A DNA stretch of 30,846 bases from a virus: IMG/VR virus record IMGVR_UViG_3300030329_002768, positions 1 to 30,846 of that record; one strand, 5' to 3'. Position numbers and translations under genes: made by a program. Positions 12,645 to 26,942 of this stretch are shown piece after piece. How positions within the stretch are numbered: position 1 is the stretch's first letter; each line of letters begins with the position of its first letter. The notes under the pieces were generated by a model. The model was not told the DNA's origin and did not search any database. It worked only from the letters and a program-made list of their open reading frames with translations.

Positions 12645-15600
12645 TCAACCTGAATGGGTTTCGTTTTCCATGAAGGCGTTGTAGATTGCTCGCTCATCAG
12701 GGCTGAGGGCGGAGTAATCTACTTCATTCACGTTGTCTGTGACCCACTCTAGGAAGTTCTGTTCCATGTCTGCCTCGTCGTCGGCCACCTCTGCGGCAAC
12801 TACCTGTTGAACGATGCTATTATCGCACACGCAGTCACCTGCGAGGCAATCTACACAGTCCCAATCTTCATCACCGAAGTCAACGGCGGCCTCTGCGAGA
12901 CCCAAGTCCATGAACGCCTGTGCATCTGCATCTGCCGTTTCCAACAGTGCAGGGCAGTTAGTGACACAGGCACTCTCCTGAAGCCCGCAAGGGCAGACAG
13001 GTTCCTTCTGCAAGGTTTGAGTGTCCATGTCCCACACATAGACGCCAGCGTCAGTGGAATCTTCATCAATCCACTTCTGCTCGACATCTTCACAGGGGCC
13101 ACAGTCCTTGGCGGGTGACGAACAAGCCTCGACTTGGGACAGGGGTTTGATGGTTGTTACCCCGCCCTTTGTCTCAGTGACCATGACTTCTCCCTTGGTG
13201 TTCTGGGAGGCAGTCTTCTTGGTCTTGTTGCTCTTACCCTTCTTCCACGCATCTGCGTCATGCTTGGCAATGACACCACACTGACCGAGATTGATTAGAC
13301 CGAAGTCGTAGTCAATCACATAGTGCGCCCCAATTTGAGCGGGGAACACCGAGTTGGATTTGAGGCATGAGCCATGATGACTCTTACCACGTCCGTCCTC
13401 TTCAGTATAGTAATCACCAAAGGCATCCAACAAGATACCCTTTTCTGACGCCCACACGACATTGCCATTGACTGTCTCGCCAAACCATAGGTCTTGGGTG
13501 TTTGACCATAGGTGGATGCGAGGACTGATGTTGTCAGCCAATTTCTCACGCTCGTCAACCCATGCAATACGCATTGAGCCGTCGACCATTTGAGACATCA
13601 GATGAACACCATCGTTGTCAGATTTCTCGGCATAATTCAACGCCGCCGCAATTGCGAAGGTGTCTGTTTCATTACCAACGAAGTCTTTCGCCAATCGTGT
13701 GTCGCCATCCCACCAGCCTTCATCTTCACCGAACTTGCGAAGGTGGCGGTCTTCTACCACTCCATTGTGCATCAGTGTGATGTTGTCTGCTCGCATGGGA
13801 TGTGCGTTACGCTCGTTGATTGCACCGTTTGTCGCATAGCGGGTATGTACCATCCATGCGTCTGCCGTGTAATCTCTGTGATCCCGTGAACCAGCCAATG
13901 CTTCAACTAGCAGAGGCCCTGCCACAGTAGGCATGTCTGAGCCACTTTCGTAGCGTGACCAACCTGTTGCATAGCCGGTTCCCCAACTACTACGAGTCTT
14001 TGTCCAACCCGAATCAGATTCGTCACGAGGGCGAGCGGCTTTGCGAACTCGGCCACGGCCCTCATCAAACATTGCTACCCCGATGGATTGCTTTCCACGA
14101 CTGCCTAGTTCGCTGGTCAGAATCTTTCGCAGACCGAATGCCTCACGACGAGTGAGGTTCTTGTTGCGATACATCTTGACCAAACCACCAATCCCACAGT
14201 TTATCAGTAAGACAACTGCGCTCACTAAGAGCATTAAGGGGGACAGTGTGGCAATCAGCGAAACCACGCCAGCACCCAACGCAACCGCTTTGAAATCACG
14301 GTGTTTGTTGTGGTCACTCATCAGAGGATTACTGTTTCTGATGAAGTCAGACCAGCCGGGAGGGATTACTCCATCTTCGACCAATCCGAGGTGCTGGAAC
14401 AAGTCATCTGCTTTCGCAGTTGACGCACGACTTCGTACCACAGAGTGATGACTCATCTCCACAAGTGTTGCGATTTGTTCATCCCGGTCTTGGCCGGGCT
14501 TCAAATTGAATCGCATTCCGCCCATCGAGAGTGCAACAAGGCTATGCAAGAAGTAAAGCCATGCCAACATTGCATCTGAATTGAGCAACCCACCTTGTTG
14601 GCGGAACTCGACAGTGCCGTGTTTGGTTATTGCACCCATGTTGACGTTAGGGTATGAGCCACCGTCACCTGCACCACGCTCTGACGCAATCATATCAATT
14701 AAGTGTCGCGCCGCGCCGTGTTTTGCTTCGTTCAGCGCACGATATAGGACATCAGGGACATCTTGATCTTCGGGATCCCATTCTTCCCATGTCTGCGTGT
14801 AGGAAGGGAGGTAGTGGTCTCGCCCATGCGCACAGTAGCAGTTGATGAAATCCAGCCACATGTCTTTCCAGACTTGCGAATCAATCTCACCATCTTCATT
14901 GATGGCGAAGTCAATCTGCATCGCACCTGCCAACTTGGACAGAGCGTATGACTGCTCAATTCTACGTGCGTAGTTTCCAACGGGGTTACTGTAGTAACAG
15001 TTTCCTGAACGACGAGAGTAGTGCATGAGCATGTCAATTTGCTCTTGCATACCTGCGTAATTACAAACAATGGCGTTCATCCAATTGACCCAGAATGTTT
15101 CATCTGCGTTTAGGTCTTCGCCATTGTAGAACTTGTTTTCGATGCGACTGATGAACCGTCGCATGTCACCCTGATGTCCGTACTTTGTAATGCCGAAGTG
15201 GATGTGTTGACCGCACTGAATGTCAATGAATCCGCGCCCACCCTCTTCAGGGCCAGCCGTTCCACCGGGGATTCGGAACGATTTCAGCGCATCCATCAGA
15301 ATGGGAATACGCTTTGTCGCTCTCTCAATCGTCCATACAGGGGTCTTGATCTCAACACAGAACACATATCCGTTTTCTTCCATGTGCATTTCATCGTGCG
15401 AGGGATCCGAGTCCACGACAGAATCTAAACTACTGTCTACGCTCACCACGATTGCACTTTGGTCGGTTGCGGAGTAATCACCCGAATAGGCGTTTTGAGA
15501 AATCCCTTCAGCACGGAAGCCGCTCTTGATGTGCAGAACTATACTTTCCATTGTTGCTGAATAACTCATTGCGCCGTCATTGGGGAACTTGCATTCAATC

Positions 15601-16550
15601 TCAAACGAGCATGTTTGCTTCGTAGGGTTTGTGACGAATAAATCAGTGACCTTTTGGTATGAATCCGCCTTCACCTTCGACATAGCCTCGACCGCCGTTG
15701 ACGTATCGAGAAGCATGTTGATTTCGCCCACAAGTTTCTGCTCGTTCTTCTGAGCAGTTTCGATGCGCTCGTGAAGAGCAAGCATCGTTTTACCTGAAGG
15801 GCGACGACTTTCGTCTGAATGTTGGAGGCGATTCTCTGCATCCTGAAGCGCAATCTTAGCGGCCATCGTCTGTGCTTTGGCCGCATTCAACTGCGTCATT
15901 ACATTCTCAACATTCTTAGCAAACTTAGCCGCTTTGAAGTTGCGAACCTTGTCCACCTTTGCCTGTTCTGCCGCGATGTCAGTGACTTGTTCCTTGTCTG
16001 CCACAAGACCCTTGCGGATCTCGACATATTCAGAACCATCTCTGACTGCACCAACCACCAAACCGAAGCCGATGGTAGAAAGTAGCATCTGTACGGTCAG
16101 GTCCGTGAAAGACCCTAAGAGGAGAGTTGCCCCTCCAATTGCACCGATGACTGCAATGCGGGTCAACCCACCCTGTAGGATGCGGTTTTGGCGCTTGGCC
16201 TTTACCGCGAGTGAACGCAGGTGTTTGATGTGCGATAGGGTAATTTTATCGCGCACCGCCTGTGTCACACGTTCCCATTTGTCCTTGAAGGACAGGGTTG
16301 ACCACCGAGAGCGCTTCTTGTCGAGTCTTTGCCGGTGAAGGCTAGTTGCTCGACGGTTTGCGCGTCGGCTTGCACTACTACTGCTGGGCAGTAACTTGTA
16401 GGCAATGTCGTCGTTCATTTCACTGTCAAAGACAGTCTCCTCGATGCTGACAACGTGGTCTGCACCGAAGTGTGTTTCAGTAGCATCTGTTACTCCGCCC
16501 GAAAGCATTGCAACAAATACGAAAGCCATGAAAATCTTGTTGAAGTTCAT
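12645..16550 (-). CDS. Membrane-bound amidoligase fused to class II glutamine amidotransferase
   Basis: 1301 residues, ribosome site AGGAGG before ATG 16550. Order: signal-like helix (1-20); basic linker (55-85); membrane hairpin (about 129-170); coiled coil (about 175-300); Amidoligase_2-type ATP-dependent ligase (about 313-680) with FEIE (E317, E319), VEIKTP (E400), CGQHIHFG (H449, H451) and KHGTVEFRQQGG (E648, R650); hydrophobic segment (755-784); class II (Ntn) glutaminase (785-1095) with CGIGG (C785), HTRYATNG (R904), NAHP, HNG (N929, G930) and ETDT (D963); Cys-rich acidic tail (1140-1245). Known role of the parts: glutaminase frees ammonia, ligase joins an amine to a carboxylate. In this fusion C785 is internal, so cleavage before it would be needed for normal activity. 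Substrate unknown; cell-envelope or virion peptide modification is inferred. Confidence 0.8.
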   Translation of the reverse strand: MNFNKIFMAFVFVAMLSGGVTDATETHFGADHVVSIEETVFDSEMNDDIAYKLLPSSSSASRRANRRATSLHRQRLDKKRSRWSTLSFKDKWERVTQAVRDKITLSHIKHLRSLAVKAKRQNRILQGGLTRIAVIGAIGGATLLLGSFTDLTVQMLLSTIGFGLVVGAVRDGSEYVEIRKGLVADKEQVTDIAAEQAKVDKVRNFKAAKFAKNVENVMTQLNAAKAQTMAAKIALQDAENRLQHSDESRRPSGKTMLALHERIETAQKNEQKLVGEINMLLDTSTAVEAMSKVKADSYQKVTDLFVTNPTKQTCSFEIECKFPNDGAMSYSATMESIVLHIKSGFRAEGISQNAYSGDYSATDQSAIVVSVDSSLDSVVDSDPSHDEMHMEENGYVFCVEIKTPVWTIERATKRIPILMDALKSFRIPGGTAGPEEGGRGFIDIQCGQHIHFGITKYGHQGDMRRFISRIENKFYNGEDLNADETFWVNWMNAIVCNYAGMQEQIDMLMHYSRRSGNCYYSNPVGNYARRIEQSYALSKLAGAMQIDFAINEDGEIDSQVWKDMWLDFINCYCAHGRDHYLPSYTQTWEEWDPEDQDVPDVLYRALNEAKHGAARHLIDMIASERGAGDGGSYPNVNMGAITKHGTVEFRQQGGLLNSDAMLAWLYFLHSLVALSMGGMRFNLKPGQDRDEQIATLVEMSHHSVVRSRASTAKADDLFQHLGLVEDGVIPPGWSDFIRNSNPLMSDHNKHRDFKAVALGAGVVSLIATLSPLMLLVSAVVLLINCGIGGLVKMYRNKNLTRREAFGLRKILTSELGSRGKQSIGVAMFDEGRGRVRKAARPRDESDSGWTKTRSSWGTGYATGWSRYESGSDMPTVAGPLLVEALAGSRDHRDYTADAWMVHTRYATNGAINERNAHPMRADNITLMHNGVVEDRHLRKFGEDEGWWDGDTRLAKDFVGNETDTFAIAAALNYAEKSDNDGVHLMSQMVDGSMRIAWVDEREKLADNISPRIHLWSNTQDLWFGETVNGNVVWASEKGILLDAFGDYYTEEDGRGKSHHGSCLKSNSVFPAQIGAHYVIDYDFGLINLGQCGVIAKHDADAWKKGKSNKTKKTASQNTKGEVMVTETKGGVTTIKPLSQVEACSSPAKDCGPCEDVEQKWIDEDSTDAGVYVWDMDTQTLQKEPVCPCGLQESACVTNCPALLETADADAQAFMDLGLAEAAVDFGDEDWDCVDCLAGDCVCDNSIVQQVVAAEVADDEADMEQNFLEWVTDNVNEVDYSALSPDERAIYNAFMENETHSG

Positions 16551-19102: not shown

Positions 19103-19411
19103 TCACCATTTCTTCCCCCTTCGCTTGTTGCGTCGTGCCTTGTTCTTACTCGCCTTCTTGCGTTCTTGCTTCTCGGCTCGCTCGGTCAATTGTCGGTGGT
19201 GTTCCTGATTCATGGCGAGTTGTTGCCATGATGACGACTTGATAATTCGTCGTGTTCGATAGCCACCTTGACGGCTTCGCACGTTGCCCGCATAACTCCG
19301 CTTGTGGATTGACACATAGGCACTTGCCTTCGTGTTCAAGTCGGGGTCGATGTCAAGTTCGGATTCACCGTACTTCCGTTGGTCGGTTGCGTGGTTGGTC
19401 ATTCGTTTCAT
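19103..19411 (-). CDS. Very basic protein (102 residues)
   Basis: ATG 19411 after AGGTGATAAC. The C-terminal third is a lysine/arginine/glutamate helix (RAEKQERKKASKNKARRNKR) and the middle is arginine-rich (GGYRTRRIIKSSSWQQ). Suited to RNA or DNA binding. It is the first gene downstream of structured region B on this strand, so an RNA-binding role with that region is worth a test, but it is only an idea. Confidence 0.5.
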   Translation of the reverse strand: MKRMTNHATDQRKYGESELDIDPDLNTKASAYVSIHKRSYAGNVRSRQGGYRTRRIIKSSSWQQLAMNQEHHRQLTERAEKQERKKASKNKARRNKRRGKKW

Positions 19412-20809
19412 GTTATCACCTGTTGAATCATCGGTTGGTTATCCAAACTCGCCACGGGGAGGCTGATTCGTGAGTTCGTGTAATCCCCAAGGGCATCCGA
19501 AAACGCCCTTGAGGATTATGTCGGTCACTCCTAGGCTTATGGGTGCTAGGAGGTCAATGGTGTGGTGGAACCACAGTGAATTATGCCACTACGAAGGCGC
19601 GATAATCTGCGCCGGAAGGCCGCCCTTGTCCCTGTTATTATTCACTCGGGGGGGCTAAATTGCGGAGGCTTCGACTTGTCCCCACGTCCTCGGACTAATG
19701 GGTGTATAGCGAAGTGGCACCGGCACCGATTGAGTGCCGGAGAACGTAAGACGATTGAAGGACGGTTGAACGATTGATTCAGCGAGTCCACTAGGTGAGG
19801 TGATTGGTTGTAATGTTGGCACGTTGCCAACCAACCAATAACGGTCAATTCAAGGGGGTGTGGCTAATCACCCCGTTAAGCCCATGAATTACACCGGCCC
19901 AACTCGTCACCCGCTTAGGTGCGTCATAGTTGAGGTCGCTGATGTGTGAGGGTTGTCAATCCCTACATCGTCCAATTGCTTCCCCGCTATCATGGCGGCG
20001 AACAATCGAATAATTGAGGTGTGGGGCTACTATCCCACACCTCGTTGAGTCTGCGCCGACTGACTAGATGACGGCCCTATCCCGTCCGCTTCCCAACTAT
20101 CAAACCTTGAATTGAATCAGACTTGCACACGTTGGCACAAATCGGTTTAGTTGATTACTGCCCTAGGCACTCAATCGCACACTTACACCTAAGTTCAATA
20201 TGCTCGCACCGAATCCACTTCATCAAATCCATTCGCCACCTATTCACCCTCAACCGTAAGCATTGGTTGAGGTCACTAAATCGCGCCCAATTCATGCCGA
20301 GGCAGTCATTGAGTTCAAGAGTTGAATCCACTTCATTCAAGGGGTTCATCCATTGGGACGGGGAACCGTCCTAATCAGTCGTCGTCCATCGCACCACACA
20401 CTTCAACGCGCTGATGTTCTCGGTTGTTGCGTGTGGTGGACTGTCCCCATTTCAGGGGCGGGAAGGACTCGCCTCACCCCTTGACGGGGTTCATTGACTC
20501 ATTGGATTAAGTGACTATCAATCACCGTACCAACCATGAATTAGATTCAAGGCCCTGATGAGGGTTGTATTTCACCCCTCTCAACCCTACTACGTAGGGC
20601 TAGGGTATAACCTTGACTGATGAAAAACGGCCTAAAATCAAGGGTTGAAATTGGGGGTCATAGGCACATCGAAATTATGCCCATTAGAGGCCCTAGAATA
20701 CCCCTAGAATCAACGCTTTTCTCTTCAGAGGGTCAAACTACTACAAACCGAAAAAACGCCAAAAATAGGCCCTCTCGCGTACGTATAGGTGGGCTACCCC
20801 CTTACAAGA
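19412..20809. ncRNA. Hairpin-rich non-coding region B, candidate large structured RNA
   Basis: About 1.4 kb without a gene I can support. Stems include CTCCTAG/CTAGGAG (19528-19552), TGTGGT/ACCACA (19561-19575), GGCGC/GCGCC (19596-19613), CCGGCAC/GTGCCGG (19720-19740), ATTGGTT/AACCAAT holding TTGGCA/TGCCAA (19803-19839), GGGGTG/CACCCC (19855-19874), GATGT/ACATC with AGGG/CCCT (19941-19969), a 10-bp GAGGTGTGGG/CCCACACCTC (20016-20043), CCTCAACC/GGTTGAGG (20248-20272), GGACGG-GGAA-CCGTCC (20356-20371), a nested stem at 20384-20441, ACCCC/GGGGT (20476-20490), AGGGTTG/CAACCCT (20561-20588) and CCCTAC/GTAGGG (20585-20599). The strand is unclear: GGAA loops favour +, the U-G stem at 19481 favours minus. 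Bases 20620-20809 hold no clear structure. Confidence 0.4.
19481..19518 (-). other. Stem-loop sharing arms with the one at 12578-12607
   Basis: Minus strand arms TAATCCTCAAGGGC and GCCCTTGGGGATTA form 14 pairs, one of them U-G, around a 10-nt loop. The + strand would have a C-A mismatch there, so the minus strand is the better RNA. About 70 nt upstream of ATG 19411. Confidence 0.55.
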
Positions 20810-20834
20810 TTTTTAATTTTTTTTTCAAAAAAAA
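20810..20834. terminator. T-run/A-run terminator, possibly two-way
   Basis: A T-rich run followed by eight A on the + strand. On the minus strand it gives T8 directly after the TGA (20835-20837) of the coiled-coil membrane gene, and on the + strand a T-run that could end a transcript of region B. Confidence 0.65.
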
Positions 20835-21152
20835 TCACAGGAGGCCAAAAAACTTGAATGCGAAAAATAGGAAAACCCCAACACCGCCTGTCCATGCGCT
20901 GACGATCTGGGCAACACGTTTGGTGATAAACTTGTCAAGGGAATAAACCGGCCCCTCTTTAATTTCCTTGATGTCCTTTGACACCATTTCAACAAGGGAG
21001 GAAATGCGTTCTGTCGCCGCTTCGTGATCGGCATTCATATCTTCCAATCGAACAAGTCTTGTTTCATGGCGGCGCAAATCCTCGCGCATATCCGTAACTT
21101 TGTCGTTAACAATGTCAATACGGGTCATTATAAGATCTGTCTGCCTCGACAT
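20835..21152 (-). CDS. Coiled coil plus C-terminal membrane helix, XhlA-like
   Basis: 105 residues. The N-terminal 70 residues are heptad-like (MTRIDIVNDKVTDMREDLRR and on), and the last 22 form one hydrophobic helix (QIVSAWTGGVGVFLFFAFKF). This architecture and size match XhlA-type phage lysis accessory proteins, which act with a holin in the inner membrane. Sequence support is only the layout. GAGGG precedes ATG 21152. Ends in a T-run terminator. Confidence 0.5.
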   Translation of the reverse strand: MSRQTDLIMTRIDIVNDKVTDMREDLRRHETRLVRLEDMNADHEAATERISSLVEMVSKDIKEIKEGPVYSLDKFITKRVAQIVSAWTGGVGVFLFFAFKFFGLL

Positions 21153-21375: not shown

Positions 21376-21463
21376 CAGTTAGTCCAAAGATAGTAGTGTT
21401 GCATAGGTATTTCTCTTATTTGGGCAAAATGTTGATAAGGCAAATACGAAACCATGTATATTG

Positions 21464-22672
21464 ATGGACGATACCTCATTTGATGTGGTGCGGGCCTTTC
21501 TCCACGAATGGGACGGTAATGATTCAGCATTTGCTAGATTATTGTTCCAAAGAACAGGAGAGCGACAACCAAACGCATGGAGAAATGTATTTGGTCGTTT
21601 CAAGACCCAACATCCCGAAGAATTACCTAAAATTGAAAAAGATGAACCAAATAAACTGATTCCTGAACATTGGGACAGAACATGGGCCGATCTAGCAAGG
21701 ACTTTGCATAAAAAACGACCTGATATTACCTACAAAGGTTGGGAGTCGAGAATAGCACAGGCAAGAATGCGCGGAGATGTAACAAGAACCCCACACAAGG
21801 ATTTTGTCGTGACACATCTCAAAGCACCCTCAATGAACGTCGGTGATTTGTGGAATGAGTTAGAGTTTCGCACTACACGCGCAATAGGCAACCATGAATC
21901 TTCAAGATGGGCTGATATTCACTTTGATGACAAACATTACATCGGAATTGCCTTCGCCGCAGATCAACACATTGGAAGTGCGTTCTGCGACATGAAAAGA
22001 ATGCGTGAAGATGCAGAATTAGTCGCAAATACTCCACATTGTTACGCAGTTATGGGTGGAGACTTTATTGACAACTTTTTACCCGCAGATAAGCCATTTC
22101 CGGCCGCTTCTGCGACAACTAAACCGGATATGCAATGGAAATTGATGGAACACTACCTCGATATGTTCAATAACGACATTTTAGCCGTTGTAGCGGGTAA
22201 TCACGACCAATGGACGAAAAAATACGCCGGAATTGACCCATTGGCAGAAATTATGGATCAAAAAGGCACATTATATCACACAGACGAGTTAAATATGCGT
22301 ATTTTCCTTGGAAAGCAACCATATTTCATTGCGGTGCGCCATAAGCGTCGAGGAAACTCGCAAATTGACCCCGCGCGTGTAGTAAAGAAGATGTGGGAGG
22401 ATGGAGAGTCAGATTTTGACATTGGTGTAGTTTGTCACAACCATACGCCAATCGTAGCACCATTTACACGACACGGTATTGAGCGTTGGGCTATCCGCCC
22501 CGGATCCTACAAAGTAGTTGATAAGTTTGCAGAAATGATTGGGTTCCCATCAGATAGGCCAACTTGCCCTCTAGCAATCCTAAATCCAAAAACACGCGAA
22601 ATACAAGTGTTTTCAGATTTGAGGCAGGGCATTAGAACACTTGAAATCTTGAATGGTGATCTTAATGAGTGA
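21464..22672 (+). CDS. Calcineurin-like metallophosphoesterase at the head of the packaging operon
   Basis: 402 residues from ATG 21464. Metal ligands of the superfamily appear in order: DQH (D167, H169), GGDFID (D200), GNHD (N246, H247, D248) and CHNH (H325, H327). These bind two metal ions for phosphodiester or phosphomonoester cleavage. Residues 1-110 are a separate helical region: two helix-turn-helix-like blocks (FDVVRAFLHEWDGNDSAFAR and WADLARTLHKKRPDITYKGW). No other small terminase gene is visible, so this N-terminal part may do the DNA-recognition job of a small subunit. It overlaps the zinc-ribbon gene by 8 nt. Confidence 0.75.
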   Translation: MDDTSFDVVRAFLHEWDGNDSAFARLLFQRTGERQPNAWRNVFGRFKTQHPEELPKIEKDEPNKLIPEHWDRTWADLARTLHKKRPDITYKGWESRIAQARMRGDVTRTPHKDFVVTHLKAPSMNVGDLWNELEFRTTRAIGNHESSRWADIHFDDKHYIGIAFAADQHIGSAFCDMKRMREDAELVANTPHCYAVMGGDFIDNFLPADKPFPAASATTKPDMQWKLMEHYLDMFNNDILAVVAGNHDQWTKKYAGIDPLAEIMDQKGTLYHTDELNMRIFLGKQPYFIAVRHKRRGNSQIDPARVVKKMWEDGESDFDIGVVCHNHTPIVAPFTRHGIERWAIRPGSYKVVDKFAEMIGFPSDRPTCPLAILNPKTREIQVFSDLRQGIRTLEILNGDLNE

Positions 22673-22805
22673 CCCACTTGAAAGACAGGCGGCCAAATGC
22701 ACAGGTTGTGGTTGGGCCACAAGATACCTTGCAGAAAAAACCTGTAAGACTCGTATTTGTCCATTTTGTGGTGAAAAGAAATTAGTGCCGTGGACTTTTG
22801 CGTAG
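22665..22805 (+). CDS. Zinc-ribbon mini-protein (46 residues)
   Basis: ATG 22665 overlaps the phosphoesterase stop, and the TAG at 22803-22805 lies 8 nt before the terminase start. CTGC (12-15) and CPFC (32-35) form a zinc ribbon of the rubredoxin-like type: AKCTGCGWATRYLAEKTCKT, then RICPFCGEKKLVPW. Position between two packaging genes suggests a role in DNA recognition by the packaging motor. Confidence 0.65.
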   Translation: MSDPLERQAAKCTGCGWATRYLAEKTCKTRICPFCGEKKLVPWTFA

Positions 22806-22813
22806 GTGATAGC

Positions 22814-24307
22814 ATGGATATTGATATGTCCCGCTTCCACTTCCAACGCTCTCGTAACGATGTAAGACATTTTTATGAATGGTTGGGCTATACGTGGGGC
22901 GACCATATCGAAGAGTGGGTTGACCTTTACCTACAAAGAGGAGATTCTGAAGTCCACCGAACCTGTATTATTGCGCCTCGTGACCATAGCAAATCTACAA
23001 CACTACGAGTAATTTTGGCTCATAACTGCTTATTCAGAAAATGGAGAGACAAGCCTTACACTGTTTGGTTATTTTCAGCGAGTAAAGATACCGCAAGTAA
23101 CCGACTTCAGGAAATCCGTGAAGATCTAATGCGCCATCCTGACCTTCGGAAGATGATTGATGAAAGACGTGGTGGTAAATGGGAATTAAAGTTCAATAAT
23201 GGCGCGTGGATTAAAGCCACATCGGTAGGTTCCGCTATTCGTGGTGAGCATCCCGCCTGTATCGCTTTTGATGACGTTCTTGTTGATTTGGGTGATATGT
23301 CAATGGACAATGTAGCCCAATGGATGCGAAAGGTTGTTACACCTATGCTAAGTCCGGGGACTGACTTCTATTGTGTTGGAACACCTATGGCGAAAACAGA
23401 TATTTACCATACTGAAATGCTAACTAACGACCAATGGAAATCAGGAGTTTGGTCTGCTTTTCCTAATTGGGATGAATGGAAATCGGATCCTGACAACATA
23501 GAGTTAGAGTGTTTATGGCCTGAACATCGTTCAAAGAAGTTTATCTTAGAACAACGGGATGCTATGGGTGATTTAGCGTTTGTGCAAGAATACTTGTGCA
23601 AAGTAGTTGATGATGATGCGCAGGTATATCCCCGAAACTTAATTCGTAAAAATCTGTCAATGGAAAATCTGATAGAACCCGAAAAAGTGCATAGTGGTAA
23701 GTATGCGATCGGATTTGACCCTGCACATGGTCTCAAACAGGACTACTCTGTAATGATTGTAGTTAGGCAAGATGAAGATGGTATTCTACATGTTGTGAAT
23801 ATGTGGCGTCGTAACGATTTTCCACCCGCAAAACAAGTTGATGAGATCTTACGCTGGAATCACGCTTACAAAATGCCCGCATTTGCTTCTGAAGATGTAG
23901 GTTTCCAAAGATTATACGAGCAACTAATCAATCAGCGTGATTCAGTCGTGGATTTCAAGCCTAGCAAGGTTAGCAACAAAGGATTGAAGCAAGGTCTCCT
24001 AAATCGCCTTCGTGTTTGGTTTGAACAAGAGAAAATACAATTCCCATACGGAGATGACAAAACTCGTAAAGTAATGGAAATCATTCTTGAAGAATTAGAG
24101 AATCACGTTTGGAAAGAAGGTGAAATCACAGATATTGGCCGACACAACGATACTACAATGGCTTTGGCTCACGCAGTCGATCAGTTTTCATTCAAAGAGG
24201 GTGGGGCAATTTTCGCATCACGCACAACCACGATGAATAGTTGGGGTGGAGAAAAGTCAAAAAAAGGTGGCAGAAGGCCCGGACGTTTTGTGACTTTTGG
24301 GGGATGA
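22814..24307 (+). CDS. terL: Terminase large subunit (packaging ATPase/nuclease)
   Basis: 497 residues from ATG 22814, which follows GGTGAT. It pumps DNA into the prohead with ATP and cuts it. ATPase: Walker A APRDHSKST (54-62), with a D-H-S form in place of the usual glycines; Walker B ACIAFDDV (about 148-155); then CVGTPM (coupling motif). Nuclease (RNase H fold): FDPAHG acid, later ASEDVGF, and GRHNDTTMALAHA with the last acid. Length is normal for the family. Followed by the portal gene after a TATA-like box. Confidence 0.9.
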   Translation: MDIDMSRFHFQRSRNDVRHFYEWLGYTWGDHIEEWVDLYLQRGDSEVHRTCIIAPRDHSKSTTLRVILAHNCLFRKWRDKPYTVWLFSASKDTASNRLQEIREDLMRHPDLRKMIDERRGGKWELKFNNGAWIKATSVGSAIRGEHPACIAFDDVLVDLGDMSMDNVAQWMRKVVTPMLSPGTDFYCVGTPMAKTDIYHTEMLTNDQWKSGVWSAFPNWDEWKSDPDNIELECLWPEHRSKKFILEQRDAMGDLAFVQEYLCKVVDDDAQVYPRNLIRKNLSMENLIEPEKVHSGKYAIGFDPAHGLKQDYSVMIVVRQDEDGILHVVNMWRRNDFPPAKQVDEILRWNHAYKMPAFASEDVGFQRLYEQLINQRDSVVDFKPSKVSNKGLKQGLLNRLRVWFEQEKIQFPYGDDKTRKVMEIILEELENHVWKEGEITDIGRHNDTTMALAHAVDQFSFKEGGAIFASRTTTMNSWGGEKSKKGGRRPGRFVTFGG

Positions 24308-24337: not shown

Positions 24338-25765
24338 ATGGCCCAAACATGCTCAAACTGTGGTCAAACAGGACACAACGCAAGAACTTGTTCAGTCGGT
24401 AAAAACCGATTTTATCCTGTGGCTACCGCTACAAACTCAAACAAAGGAATGATGCGTGGCCCATTCGCCGCCGCAACAGGAATCCCTGCAATCATTGATG
24501 ATACAGAGGATATGCGAAAGGATGCTCACTATGACACAGTATTCGACCTCTATGATGATATGGTCAGATTCGACCCTGAATTGAACGGCGCAGTAAGATC
24601 TGTCAGCCTAACTGCAAATAATTGGGATATTGACTATCGGCCCGGAAAAAACGAGACTGTTCGCAACGCTATTCGTGAATTAGTAGAAAATCTTGATTTT
24701 GATGACATCCTAATCAACTGTATGCGAAACTTGATGGTTTATGGAAATGACGTAAACAAATTGGTCGGTAAAGCCGGAATAGGTATTAGCGCAGTCCAAA
24801 GTCTTCCCATCACCCAAATTACAATTGTTGATGAGCGAAACCCACCATTCCAAGCCGATCAGGACAATCCTGTTATCGACCCTCGTTGGTATTGGCTTCG
24901 TGAGGGTAAGCGCGACCCTATGGCATTCCCAGCAAATGAAATCCTCCATGTAAAGATTGATTATCGCTCTAATTGGTACAAGGACAAAAAACTCCGATGG
25001 ACTTACGGTATTTGGGGCGCATCCCGATTTAGCAGTCTAAAGCAACCAATCCGAGCAAAGTATAACAGTATCAACAATAGAACGGCTCTTGAAGATAGTT
25101 TGACAAAACAATTCGTTACAATTGACCAAGCGGCAGTTGAACACATTGTCGATCCGAATGAACAACGTGAAAGACTTGTCCACATTATGGATGAGGTAGC
25201 AAAACTACTTGAGGGGCTACGTGGCGACCAAATCCCAATCCTACCCCACTACGTTGAAATGCACCACGTTGATTTGAAAAACTCAATTCCTGATAATTCA
25301 GGATTCCTTGACAGTGTTAACGCCGATATTGCGGCGGTTCTAAATGTTCCGCGTGTGGCGGCAGGTCAAGAACGTGGCTCAACCTTCGCCGCAACTTTCA
25401 ACGCAAATATGTGGTCTGTTTCAGCAATTAAGCGTCTACAAAGTGTTGTTGAACAAGCAATGCTTGATTTATTCATGCGTCATCTTGATCTTAAGGGCAT
25501 CAAAGTAGAACAGAGGCAAATACCTCGATTAGTGTTCAACCCAATGGAAGATGAGTCCCGATTTGAAAAAATGCGAAGAGCCGTCATGGGTTATGGCGGT
25601 GGTATTCTCACTTTGAATCAGTCCCTTGATATTTTGGGCTTCCCACCTGTCCCTGATGGGGACGAGAGGAAGCAAGATTCATTAAACGAACAAGACGTAG
25701 GTGAATTGCCGAGAGAGAACGAACAAGAGGACACAGGTAATACAAAGGGTGGTGACGATGAGTGA
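24338..25765 (+). CDS. Portal protein with an N-terminal CCHC zinc knuckle
   Basis: 475 residues. Portal proteins form the dodecamer through which DNA enters the head. Support: place directly after the terminase, length, a SLTANNWDIDYRPG core after an N-terminal FDPELNGAVRS helix region, EILHVKIDYRSN and a C-terminal NVPRVAAGQERGSTFAATFN segment as in phage portals (the region after the stem helix), then an acidic tail. Residues 5-18 are C-x2-C-x4-H-x4-C (CSNCGQTGHNARTC), a zinc knuckle known from retroviral nucleocapsids and some RNA- or DNA-binding proteins; I do not know it from portals. Confidence 0.8.
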   Translation: MAQTCSNCGQTGHNARTCSVGKNRFYPVATATNSNKGMMRGPFAAATGIPAIIDDTEDMRKDAHYDTVFDLYDDMVRFDPELNGAVRSVSLTANNWDIDYRPGKNETVRNAIRELVENLDFDDILINCMRNLMVYGNDVNKLVGKAGIGISAVQSLPITQITIVDERNPPFQADQDNPVIDPRWYWLREGKRDPMAFPANEILHVKIDYRSNWYKDKKLRWTYGIWGASRFSSLKQPIRAKYNSINNRTALEDSLTKQFVTIDQAAVEHIVDPNEQRERLVHIMDEVAKLLEGLRGDQIPILPHYVEMHHVDLKNSIPDNSGFLDSVNADIAAVLNVPRVAAGQERGSTFAATFNANMWSVSAIKRLQSVVEQAMLDLFMRHLDLKGIKVEQRQIPRLVFNPMEDESRFEKMRRAVMGYGGGILTLNQSLDILGFPPVPDGDERKQDSLNEQDVGELPRENEQEDTGNTKGGDDE

Positions 25766-26942
25766 TGGGAATGAAGAGGCAATTAAGCGAGCATTAGAAT
25801 CGGGTCGAAGCCACGAAGATATTGCTAAAGATCTAGCAGATGATGGGTTACTGAATAATAGTCATCTTCTAGGTTCGACTGAAAGACTTATCGAATCAAA
25901 CGGTGAAACTCAAGACGTTATTGAACGTGCCACAGAAACCGCACAGAAGTTACAGAAACTCCTAACTGCTATTATCCCAATCCTTGTTCTTATCGCAGGT
26001 AGCGGTTTGGAACTCGGAGGGTTCATTGATGTTACACCCGCAGGTGACGGTGACGATGACGAGTGGTTTTGGCAAGATAATAATGAGCCTAACTATCCAC
26101 ATATACCTCGTTTGGGATGCACAGATTACAACGCACTAAACTACGATGAAACGGCAGAGGTGGATGATGGATCTTGTGACTATCCGCACCACGTTGAACC
26201 GAGTGTAGATATTACACAGATGGAATCCTCACTTACACCCGATGGCGATATGAAAATGGAAATGTATCTTGTCGTTGAAGGTCACTTTGAAGATGACATT
26301 GGGCTATGGTGGTCTGTTCAACATGACGGAGAACACCAACCACACTTAGACCGACATACTGAAGAATACGCGGGCGATACAGGACACGTCGAAGAGTATT
26401 GGAGTGATTTAGAAGATGGTGAGTGGGTCGTACGAATACGTGCATACTATCCCGAAGGTGAACTGATGGATGATGAAACGTTCCCCGCTATCATCTTACA
26501 AAACGACGAGCCTGAACCTATTGAGGGTTGCACCGATCCTGAAGCCGAAAACTATGACGACGAGGCTGAAGAAGATGATGGGTCATGCACATATCCACCG
26601 GAATGTGAGCCGGAATACTACGACTACCAAGTATCTTACACCGACAATAACACAACAGGTATTCAATTCACTTACGATGTAGATATTTCATGTGATGAGA
26701 CACAGAATGTGGAAGTTCAATTCCTTGCTTATGTGAATGGAAGCGGGCATGGTGTCTCTCCTTACAATTGGACTTCAGATATTTACAACACTACCTATCA
26801 AGATTGGGATAGCCGAACAGTGTATCTTAGTAACTTTGAAAATGGTTCATACGACATTTACGCCTACTTAATTAACGAAGATGGTGAAATGATTAGTGAA
26901 TTGATTTGGCGTGACGTTCAATTGAAGATGAGGGATGAGTAA
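25758..26942 (+). CDS. Membrane-anchored acidic protein with GCTD...DDGSC repeats
   Basis: 394 residues from ATG 25758, which overlaps the portal stop and has a GGTGAC site. A helical N-terminal part (1-67) leads to one membrane helix (about 68-83, LLTAIIPILVLIAGSGL). Outside follow a very acidic stretch and two copies of GCTDxxAxNYDxxAExDDGSCxYP (120-143 and 257-280) separated by a beta-rich domain of about 110 residues. This Cys-pair repeat is known from surface and secreted proteins of marine microbes. With N-in topology the repeats are exported or lie on the virion. Placement within the head operon suggests a structural or adhesive role. Confidence 0.6.
   Translation: MSDGNEEAIKRALESGRSHEDIAKDLADDGLLNNSHLLGSTERLIESNGETQDVIERATETAQKLQKLLTAIIPILVLIAGSGLELGGFIDVTPAGDGDDDEWFWQDNNEPNYPHIPRLGCTDYNALNYDETAEVDDGSCDYPHHVEPSVDITQMESSLTPDGDMKMEMYLVVEGHFEDDIGLWWSVQHDGEHQPHLDRHTEEYAGDTGHVEEYWSDLEDGEWVVRIRAYYPEGELMDDETFPAIILQNDEPEPIEGCTDPEAENYDDEAEEDDGSCTYPPECEPEYYDYQVSYTDNNTTGIQFTYDVDISCDETQNVEVQFLAYVNGSGHGVSPYNWTSDIYNTTYQDWDSRTVYLSNFENGSYDIYAYLINEDGEMISELIWRDVQLKMRDE
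26115..26186 (+). repeat. GCTD/DDGSC repeat copy 1 (coding)
   Basis: Encodes GCTDYNALNYDETAEVDDGSC plus YP context; second copy at 26526-26597. Cysteines at both ends probably close a disulfide. Confidence 0.7.
26526..26597 (+). repeat. GCTD/DDGSC repeat copy 2 (coding)
   Basis: Same motif with more acidic residues between the cysteines (NYDDEAEEDDGS). Confidence 0.7.

Follow-up and report, generated by a model that had tools for sequence, protein, structure and literature searches.

A single reading frame in a viral contig was found to encode a protein of 1301 residues in which an amidoligase domain is joined to a class II GATase domain. Comparison with relatives supported both enzyme domains as real and fused, and hydropathy indicated that the protein is membrane-associated. 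The contig, referred to here as the window, is the whole stretch of 30,846 bases that was analysed (positions 1 to 30,846 of IMG/VR record IMGVR_UViG_3300030329_002768). It is proposed, with moderate confidence, that the protein acts as a glutamine-dependent amide ligase tethered to the membrane. It would be synthesized as a precursor that becomes active once the bond preceding the glutaminase cysteine has been cut, and its likeliest substrate would be a host molecule linked to the membrane.

The plus strand of 12645–16550 contained stop codons all along its length and the uninterrupted frame was present on the minus strand only. The features of the protein, together with the terminase gene used in the search for relatives, were located as follows.

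12645..16550, minus strand: amidoligase-GATase fusion ORF, membrane protein of 1301 aa (frame, Pfam, conserved relatives)
16479..16535, minus strand: N-terminal hydrophobic segment, residues 6–24, signal anchor or signal peptide (Kyte-Doolittle)
16035..16175, minus strand: second hydrophobic region, residues ~126–172, peak at 151–169 (Kyte-Doolittle)
15639..15905, minus strand: long helical, coiled-coil-like region, residues ~216–304 (AlphaFold2 helices)
14451..15617, minus strand: Amidoligase_2 domain, residues ~312–700 (Pfam, invariant residues, fold matches)
14199..14291, minus strand: junction hydrophobic segment, residues 754–784, Pro at 771, candidate propeptide end and membrane anchor
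14196..14198, minus strand: Cys785, GATase catalytic nucleophile, with candidate cleavage bond N784/C785 (invariant, superposes on PurF/GlmS Cys1)
13266..14198, minus strand: class II GATase (Ntn) domain, residues 785–1095, with R904, N929, G930 and D963
12648..13223, minus strand: C-terminal tail, residues 1110–1301, no known family (sequence, without Pfam match)
22790..24307, plus strand: terminase large subunit (phrog_38, E=7e-41), bait for related viruses

The layout bore out an original prediction made from the letters of the window alone, which had placed both enzymes in one 1301-residue frame with membrane segments, a coiled coil and a Cys-rich tail. Kyte-Doolittle peaks were obtained at residues 6–24, 151–169 and 754–794, the last overlapping an AlphaFold2 helix at 756–781. 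The second hydrophobic region was present in the subgroup formed by the window protein and L013, and much of it was missing from L183. Long helices were modelled at ~216–304, and the Cys-rich part of the tail could be read off the sequence from residue ~1165 on.

Direct searches matched only distant phage proteins, and scans of viral contigs for close relatives of the whole protein or of its amidoligase part gave no new locus. The alignments with the phage proteins were too divergent to serve as queries. Relatives were sought via the terminase (29 related contigs), via a degenerate HTRYATxG...NAHP pattern (45) and in a third scan. This search of viral contigs for the same fusion, which the original prediction had suggested, yielded 22 distinct fused proteins, including L183, after removal of one contig that had been fetched twice. 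A chance join, a frameshift or an assembly error was ruled out, as the fused frame is kept in L013, L183 and 19 others. In a tree of GATase domains the fused proteins formed a single clade (support 97/94), showing a single origin, with the window protein and L013 as a divergent pair. Whole-gene dN/dS between close pairs of fused members was 0.08–0.39, as expected of a gene under purifying selection. The fusion gene was carried by 3 of the 18 terminase-related contigs searched and is classed as accessory, because related terminase lineages are without it. One scan of cellular genomes with HTRYATHG-type patterns gave no fusion; these motifs belong to the main subgroup and would miss the divergent subgroup of the window, so that absence of the fusion from cells is unproven.

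Pfam matched Amidoligase_2 (PF12224) at residues 316–465 of the window protein (E=5.3e-6, 26.9 bits against a curated cut-off of 22) and GATase_6 at residues 895–1011 (E=1.6e-9, above the curated cut-off), the two families on which the original prediction was to stand or fall. Among the fused relatives GATase_6 was matched in 21 of 21 and Amidoligase_2 in 20 of 21 at E ≤ 0.001, with a best value of 5.9e-24. Every motif that had been named was found at its given residue and was invariant in an alignment of 21 fused members (A5, in which the window residue is the A5 number + 214, C785 being A5 residue 571). These are E317, E319, E400, H449, H451, E648 and R650, the key residues of the amidoligase domain, and C785, R904, N929-G930 and D963 of the GATase. 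The first domain combines a glutamine-synthetase/GCS-like fold with the conserved E, H and E-x-R residues of Amidoligase_2, and the second combines the profile of class II GATases (MEROPS C44) with their catalytic Cys, Arg, Asn-Gly and Asp, Cys785 occupying the Cys1 position of the Ntn fold. NCBIfam ranked GlmS models first for the fused proteins, although the glmS and purF scores were far below cut-off; the window protein is not a GlmS, scoring 30.8 bits for glmS against a cut-off of 418, with the match confined to the glutaminase part. No match at E ≤ 0.01 was obtained for the window protein among the anti-phage defence profiles of PADLOC-DB.

Structures were modelled by AlphaFold2 with family alignments for the 764-residue relative L085 (mean pLDDT 74, domains mostly 80–93) and for residues 215–1110 of the window protein (mean pLDDT 61). 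The GATase of L085 begins at Cys395 and aligned with GlmS and PurF from their residue 1 (Z ~26, VIA-align 2), while residues 44–332 matched YbdK and glutamine synthetase (Z ~12.8, VIA-align 2). In the window model, residue 571, which corresponds to Cys785, aligned with residue 1 of PurF/GlmS (1ecb/2j6h) with Z ~20, and the amidoligase part matched glutamine synthetase with Z ~12, YbdK also being ranked by Foldseek. The fold matches of L085 included beta-lactam synthetase, and one GAT-QueC-type protein was present in the fold-match list. The junction hydrophobic segment was modelled with pLDDT under 50, and the packing of the domains against one another is unreliable in both models (pTM 0.45–0.46).

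Cys785 is internal in the translated ORF of the window, and in all 22 fused members a hydrophobic segment runs right up to the catalytic Cys. The 22–35 residues preceding the Cys are uncharged, except in L036, where the uncharged length is only 9 and the stretch contains one Lys. A Pro lies inside the stretch in every fused member except L060. The residue at -1 is Gly in 18 members, Asn in two (window, L059) and Ala in two (L013 and L183, the latter taken from the protein sequence). The -1 codon is GGN, AAC or GCG and never a start codon, so translation cannot begin at the junction Cys and an internal start just ahead of it was ruled out. Met-Cys stood at the junction position in 80 of the 95 stand-alone GATase ORFs recovered in the same searches, and the remaining 15 had no hydrophobic segment there; judged against these 95 sequences, a hydrophobic segment abutting the Cys is specific to the fused family. 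Look-ups among solved structures gave no relative of the junction segment. As a separate observation, the GATase-like proteins L165–L168 and L171, from Ignisphaera and other Thermoproteota, begin Met-Gly-Gly in place of the Met-Cys-Gly of other family members, and their nucleophile seems to have been lost or replaced.

The type of host was judged from RFC and PolB. The window terminase had no close match among named viruses, and that of the nearest long relative, G001, was 84% identical to it. Genes for an RFC small subunit, a family B polymerase and a cpn60-type chaperonin are present in G001; among solved structures, the RFC small subunit was best matched by the RFCS chain 1iqp, the archaeal clamp loader. 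RFC was found in 10 and PolB in 11 of the 16 contigs tested, nearly all the long ones among them; no match to a PCNA profile was found in 12 contigs. Because the long contigs carry archaeal-type RFC clamp loaders together with PolB, gene content gives good support to an archaeal tailed virus, in agreement with the archaeal-type virus originally suggested. Among named viruses, the RFC matches with the best E-values were to HVTV-1 and HCTV-5, tailed viruses of haloarchaea that belong to the Druskaviridae. Druskaviridae-type haloarchaeal viruses are distant relatives of the magroviruses according to ICTV (PMC10768690). Magroviruses, which are viruses of Poseidoniales, have archaeal-type RFC and PolB and a GroEL-type chaperonin, like G001 (PMC10768690, PMC10160649). 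The viruses with the fused protein are probably viruses of marine archaea, with Poseidoniales as a likely host. The chaperonin gene of the nearest long relative (L178:1240-2826, plus strand) has a GroEL-like N-terminus, as reported for magroviruses.

In the window the head genes, including terminase and portal, are on the plus strand, and the fusion gene is on the minus strand. The terminase is adjoined on its upstream side by a calcineurin-like phosphoesterase (21461–22672, plus strand), in whose place G001 has a similar 402-aa ORF (L176:12092-13297). The portal ORF (24338–25765, plus strand) opens with CSNCGQTGHNARTC, a CCHC zinc-knuckle-like motif missing from the portal of the relative (L176:9044-10423). 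Its end is overlapped by a 413-aa ORF (25701–26942, plus strand) with two GCTDxxAxNYxxxAxxDDGSC repeats and an N-terminus conserved in L176:7924-9081. Near the divergence of the gene arms, ~1.4 kb (19411–20835) is without a convincing long ORF and may contain control elements or an origin.

Class II GATases belong to the Ntn enzymes and use an N-terminal Cys as nucleophile, and in family C44 a few residues ahead of the Cys are removed autocatalytically and ammonia is channelled to a second domain (PMC9140057). Here, what precedes the Cys is the entire amidoligase together with a membrane-type segment. Class II GATases need the Cys at the N-terminus, but that of the glutaminase is internal, so the expected working form is two chains, cut at 784/785. 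Given an intact active site under selection, a precursor cut directly before the Cys would be the simplest reading. Other Ntn enzymes have Gly before the cut, as in proteasome beta subunits and penicillin acylase, or Asn, as in the gamma-glutamyltranspeptidase of E. coli. Under the proposed mechanism a single precursor chain would be made first, and the Gly-, Asn- or Ala-Cys bond behind the membrane-type segment would then be cut, most likely through self-cleavage by the Ntn domain, leaving Cys785 as the N-terminal nucleophile. The GATase domain would split glutamine and pass the ammonia to the amidoligase domain, which has a glutamine-synthetase-like fold and would use ATP to convert a carboxylate to a carboxamide. 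The N-terminal membrane segments would keep the amidoligase anchored, and the likeliest substrate would be a carboxylate carried by a host molecule linked to the membrane, for example a lipid-linked glycan. The original prediction of a self-contained, membrane-held machine thus stands as regards fusion and membrane association, but is doubtful in its simplest form, because class II GATases need an N-terminal Cys (PMC9140057) and the Cys of the glutaminase is internal.

The flank charges of the hydrophobic segments conflict: the stretch after the first is basic, whereas the junction segment mostly has an acidic flank on its N-terminal side and a basic one on its C-terminal side. The amidoligase and GATase would therefore both be placed inside the cell only if the junction segment forms a re-entrant hairpin. 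The location of the Cys directly behind a membrane segment suggests that the glutaminase can work only once a cut at the membrane has released it. This may represent a new way of switching on an Ntn enzyme, in which the catalytic Cys is kept at the end of a membrane segment until a cut there makes it the N-terminal nucleophile. The product of one viral gene would then be a membrane-bound, amide-forming complex that rewrites carboxylates on the marine-archaeal surface during infection, a proposal that is tentative and on balance doubtful.

Both domains could also be active if the junction were cut by a host membrane protease of signal-peptidase or rhomboid type, the glutaminase being switched on only once inserted in the membrane. 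In favour of this, 20 of 22 members have a small residue, Gly or Ala, ahead of the Cys, where a hydrophobic segment carrying a conserved Pro comes to an end; however, Asn at -1, as in the window and L059, makes a poor signal peptidase site. Ntn enzymes are moreover normally self-cutting (PMC9140057), and a host protease is considered unlikely. The internal Cys would also fit a GATase in which it is never freed, serving a regulatory or glutamine-sensing role without glutaminase activity, with the amidoligase using free ammonia or another amine. Beta-lactam synthetase, one of the fold matches, does retain a GATase-like domain lacking glutaminase function, but the invariance of the catalytic residues, including the Cys, in 21 diverse members under purifying selection is unexpected for a dead site and makes this quite improbable. 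A lipoprotein-type junction, in which a lipid on Cys785 anchors the GATase and the Cys does not act as nucleophile, is suggested by the lipobox-like V-[VI]-G-C of most members. Most relatives do fit the lipobox [LVI][ASTVI][GAS]C, but the window reads LINC, and Asn is at -1 in two members. Lipidation would also block Cys785, which aligns with Cys1 in structure and is invariant, as is the rest of the active site, and the basic flank after the Cys suits the inside, whereas lipoproteins face outside; lipidation is thus extremely improbable.

The target is a further point on which readings differ. The original prediction had offered the host envelope or the virion; the envelope is a guess, and the virion is less likely because the gene is in the non-structural arm, on the strand opposite to the terminase, portal and capsid-side genes. 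Viral DNA, a nucleotide precursor, as for GAT-QueC-type phage proteins, or a virion protein might instead be modified. Class II GATases do occur in phage 7-deazaguanine pathways, one such protein being among the fold matches, and the gene lies in the non-structural arm, near replication genes in G001. An enzyme acting on DNA or a soluble nucleotide would nevertheless hardly be expected to have membrane segments, which are present in all members, and these targets are judged very unlikely.

Amidoligase and class II GATase as neighbouring separate genes are common in phages, as had been stated in the original prediction, and the single-gene membrane fusion is a variant of this known pair. Pairs of phiEco32, LUZ24 and Grimontviridae type, for example in Escherichia phage ECBP2, Pseudomonas phage tf and Arthrobacter phage Kovu, have the same two domain families, often in the same order with the amidoligase upstream, an arrangement that would fit a functional pair. 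Unlike the fusion, they are two separate soluble proteins, with a GATase starting Met-Cys and no membrane segments seen. They often occur with an ATP-grasp RimK gene, whereas no RimK partner was found in the 16 fused contigs searched. They also often occur with a gamma-glutamyl cyclotransferase gene, and a GGACT gene in 8 of 16 fused contigs, with none in the nearest long relative of the window, recalls this phage cassette. The GGACT (gamma-glutamyl cyclotransferase-like) genes of the long fused contigs G005–G012 (L087, L089, L091, L090, L100, L099, L085, L095) lie near the RFC gene and many kilobases away from the fusion. The GATase domains of GlmS and PurF share the fold and the catalytic Cys, Arg, Asn-Gly and Asp of the fusion, but their synthase partner is not an amidoligase, their Cys comes to stand at the N-terminus once Met or a short propeptide has been removed, and they are without a membrane segment. 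YbdK/GCS2 and glutamine synthetase have the fold of the amidoligase domain at 7–14% identity, with different substrates expected and no glutaminase fused.

According to a 2009 proposal by Iyer et al., as reported in PMC10580990, phage amidoligase/GATase pairs would modify the cell wall and shut out superinfecting phages. The literature found on these pairs reported no enzymatic test, and no description of an amidoligase-GATase fusion was found. Surveys of magroviruses list 'GlmS' among auxiliary genes (PMC10160649), and these calls may be GATases of the fusion kind, because GlmS is the first-ranked, if far sub-threshold, NCBIfam model for the fused proteins. A single-gene, membrane-bound form that is conserved among archaeal viruses points to the membrane as the likely place where the enzymes act, and the fusion offers one protein for testing the function of amidoligase and GATase. 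Should the junction prove to be cut, Ntn enzymes would gain a membrane-coupled activation, and the genes that magrovirus surveys may call GlmS would gain a concrete role.
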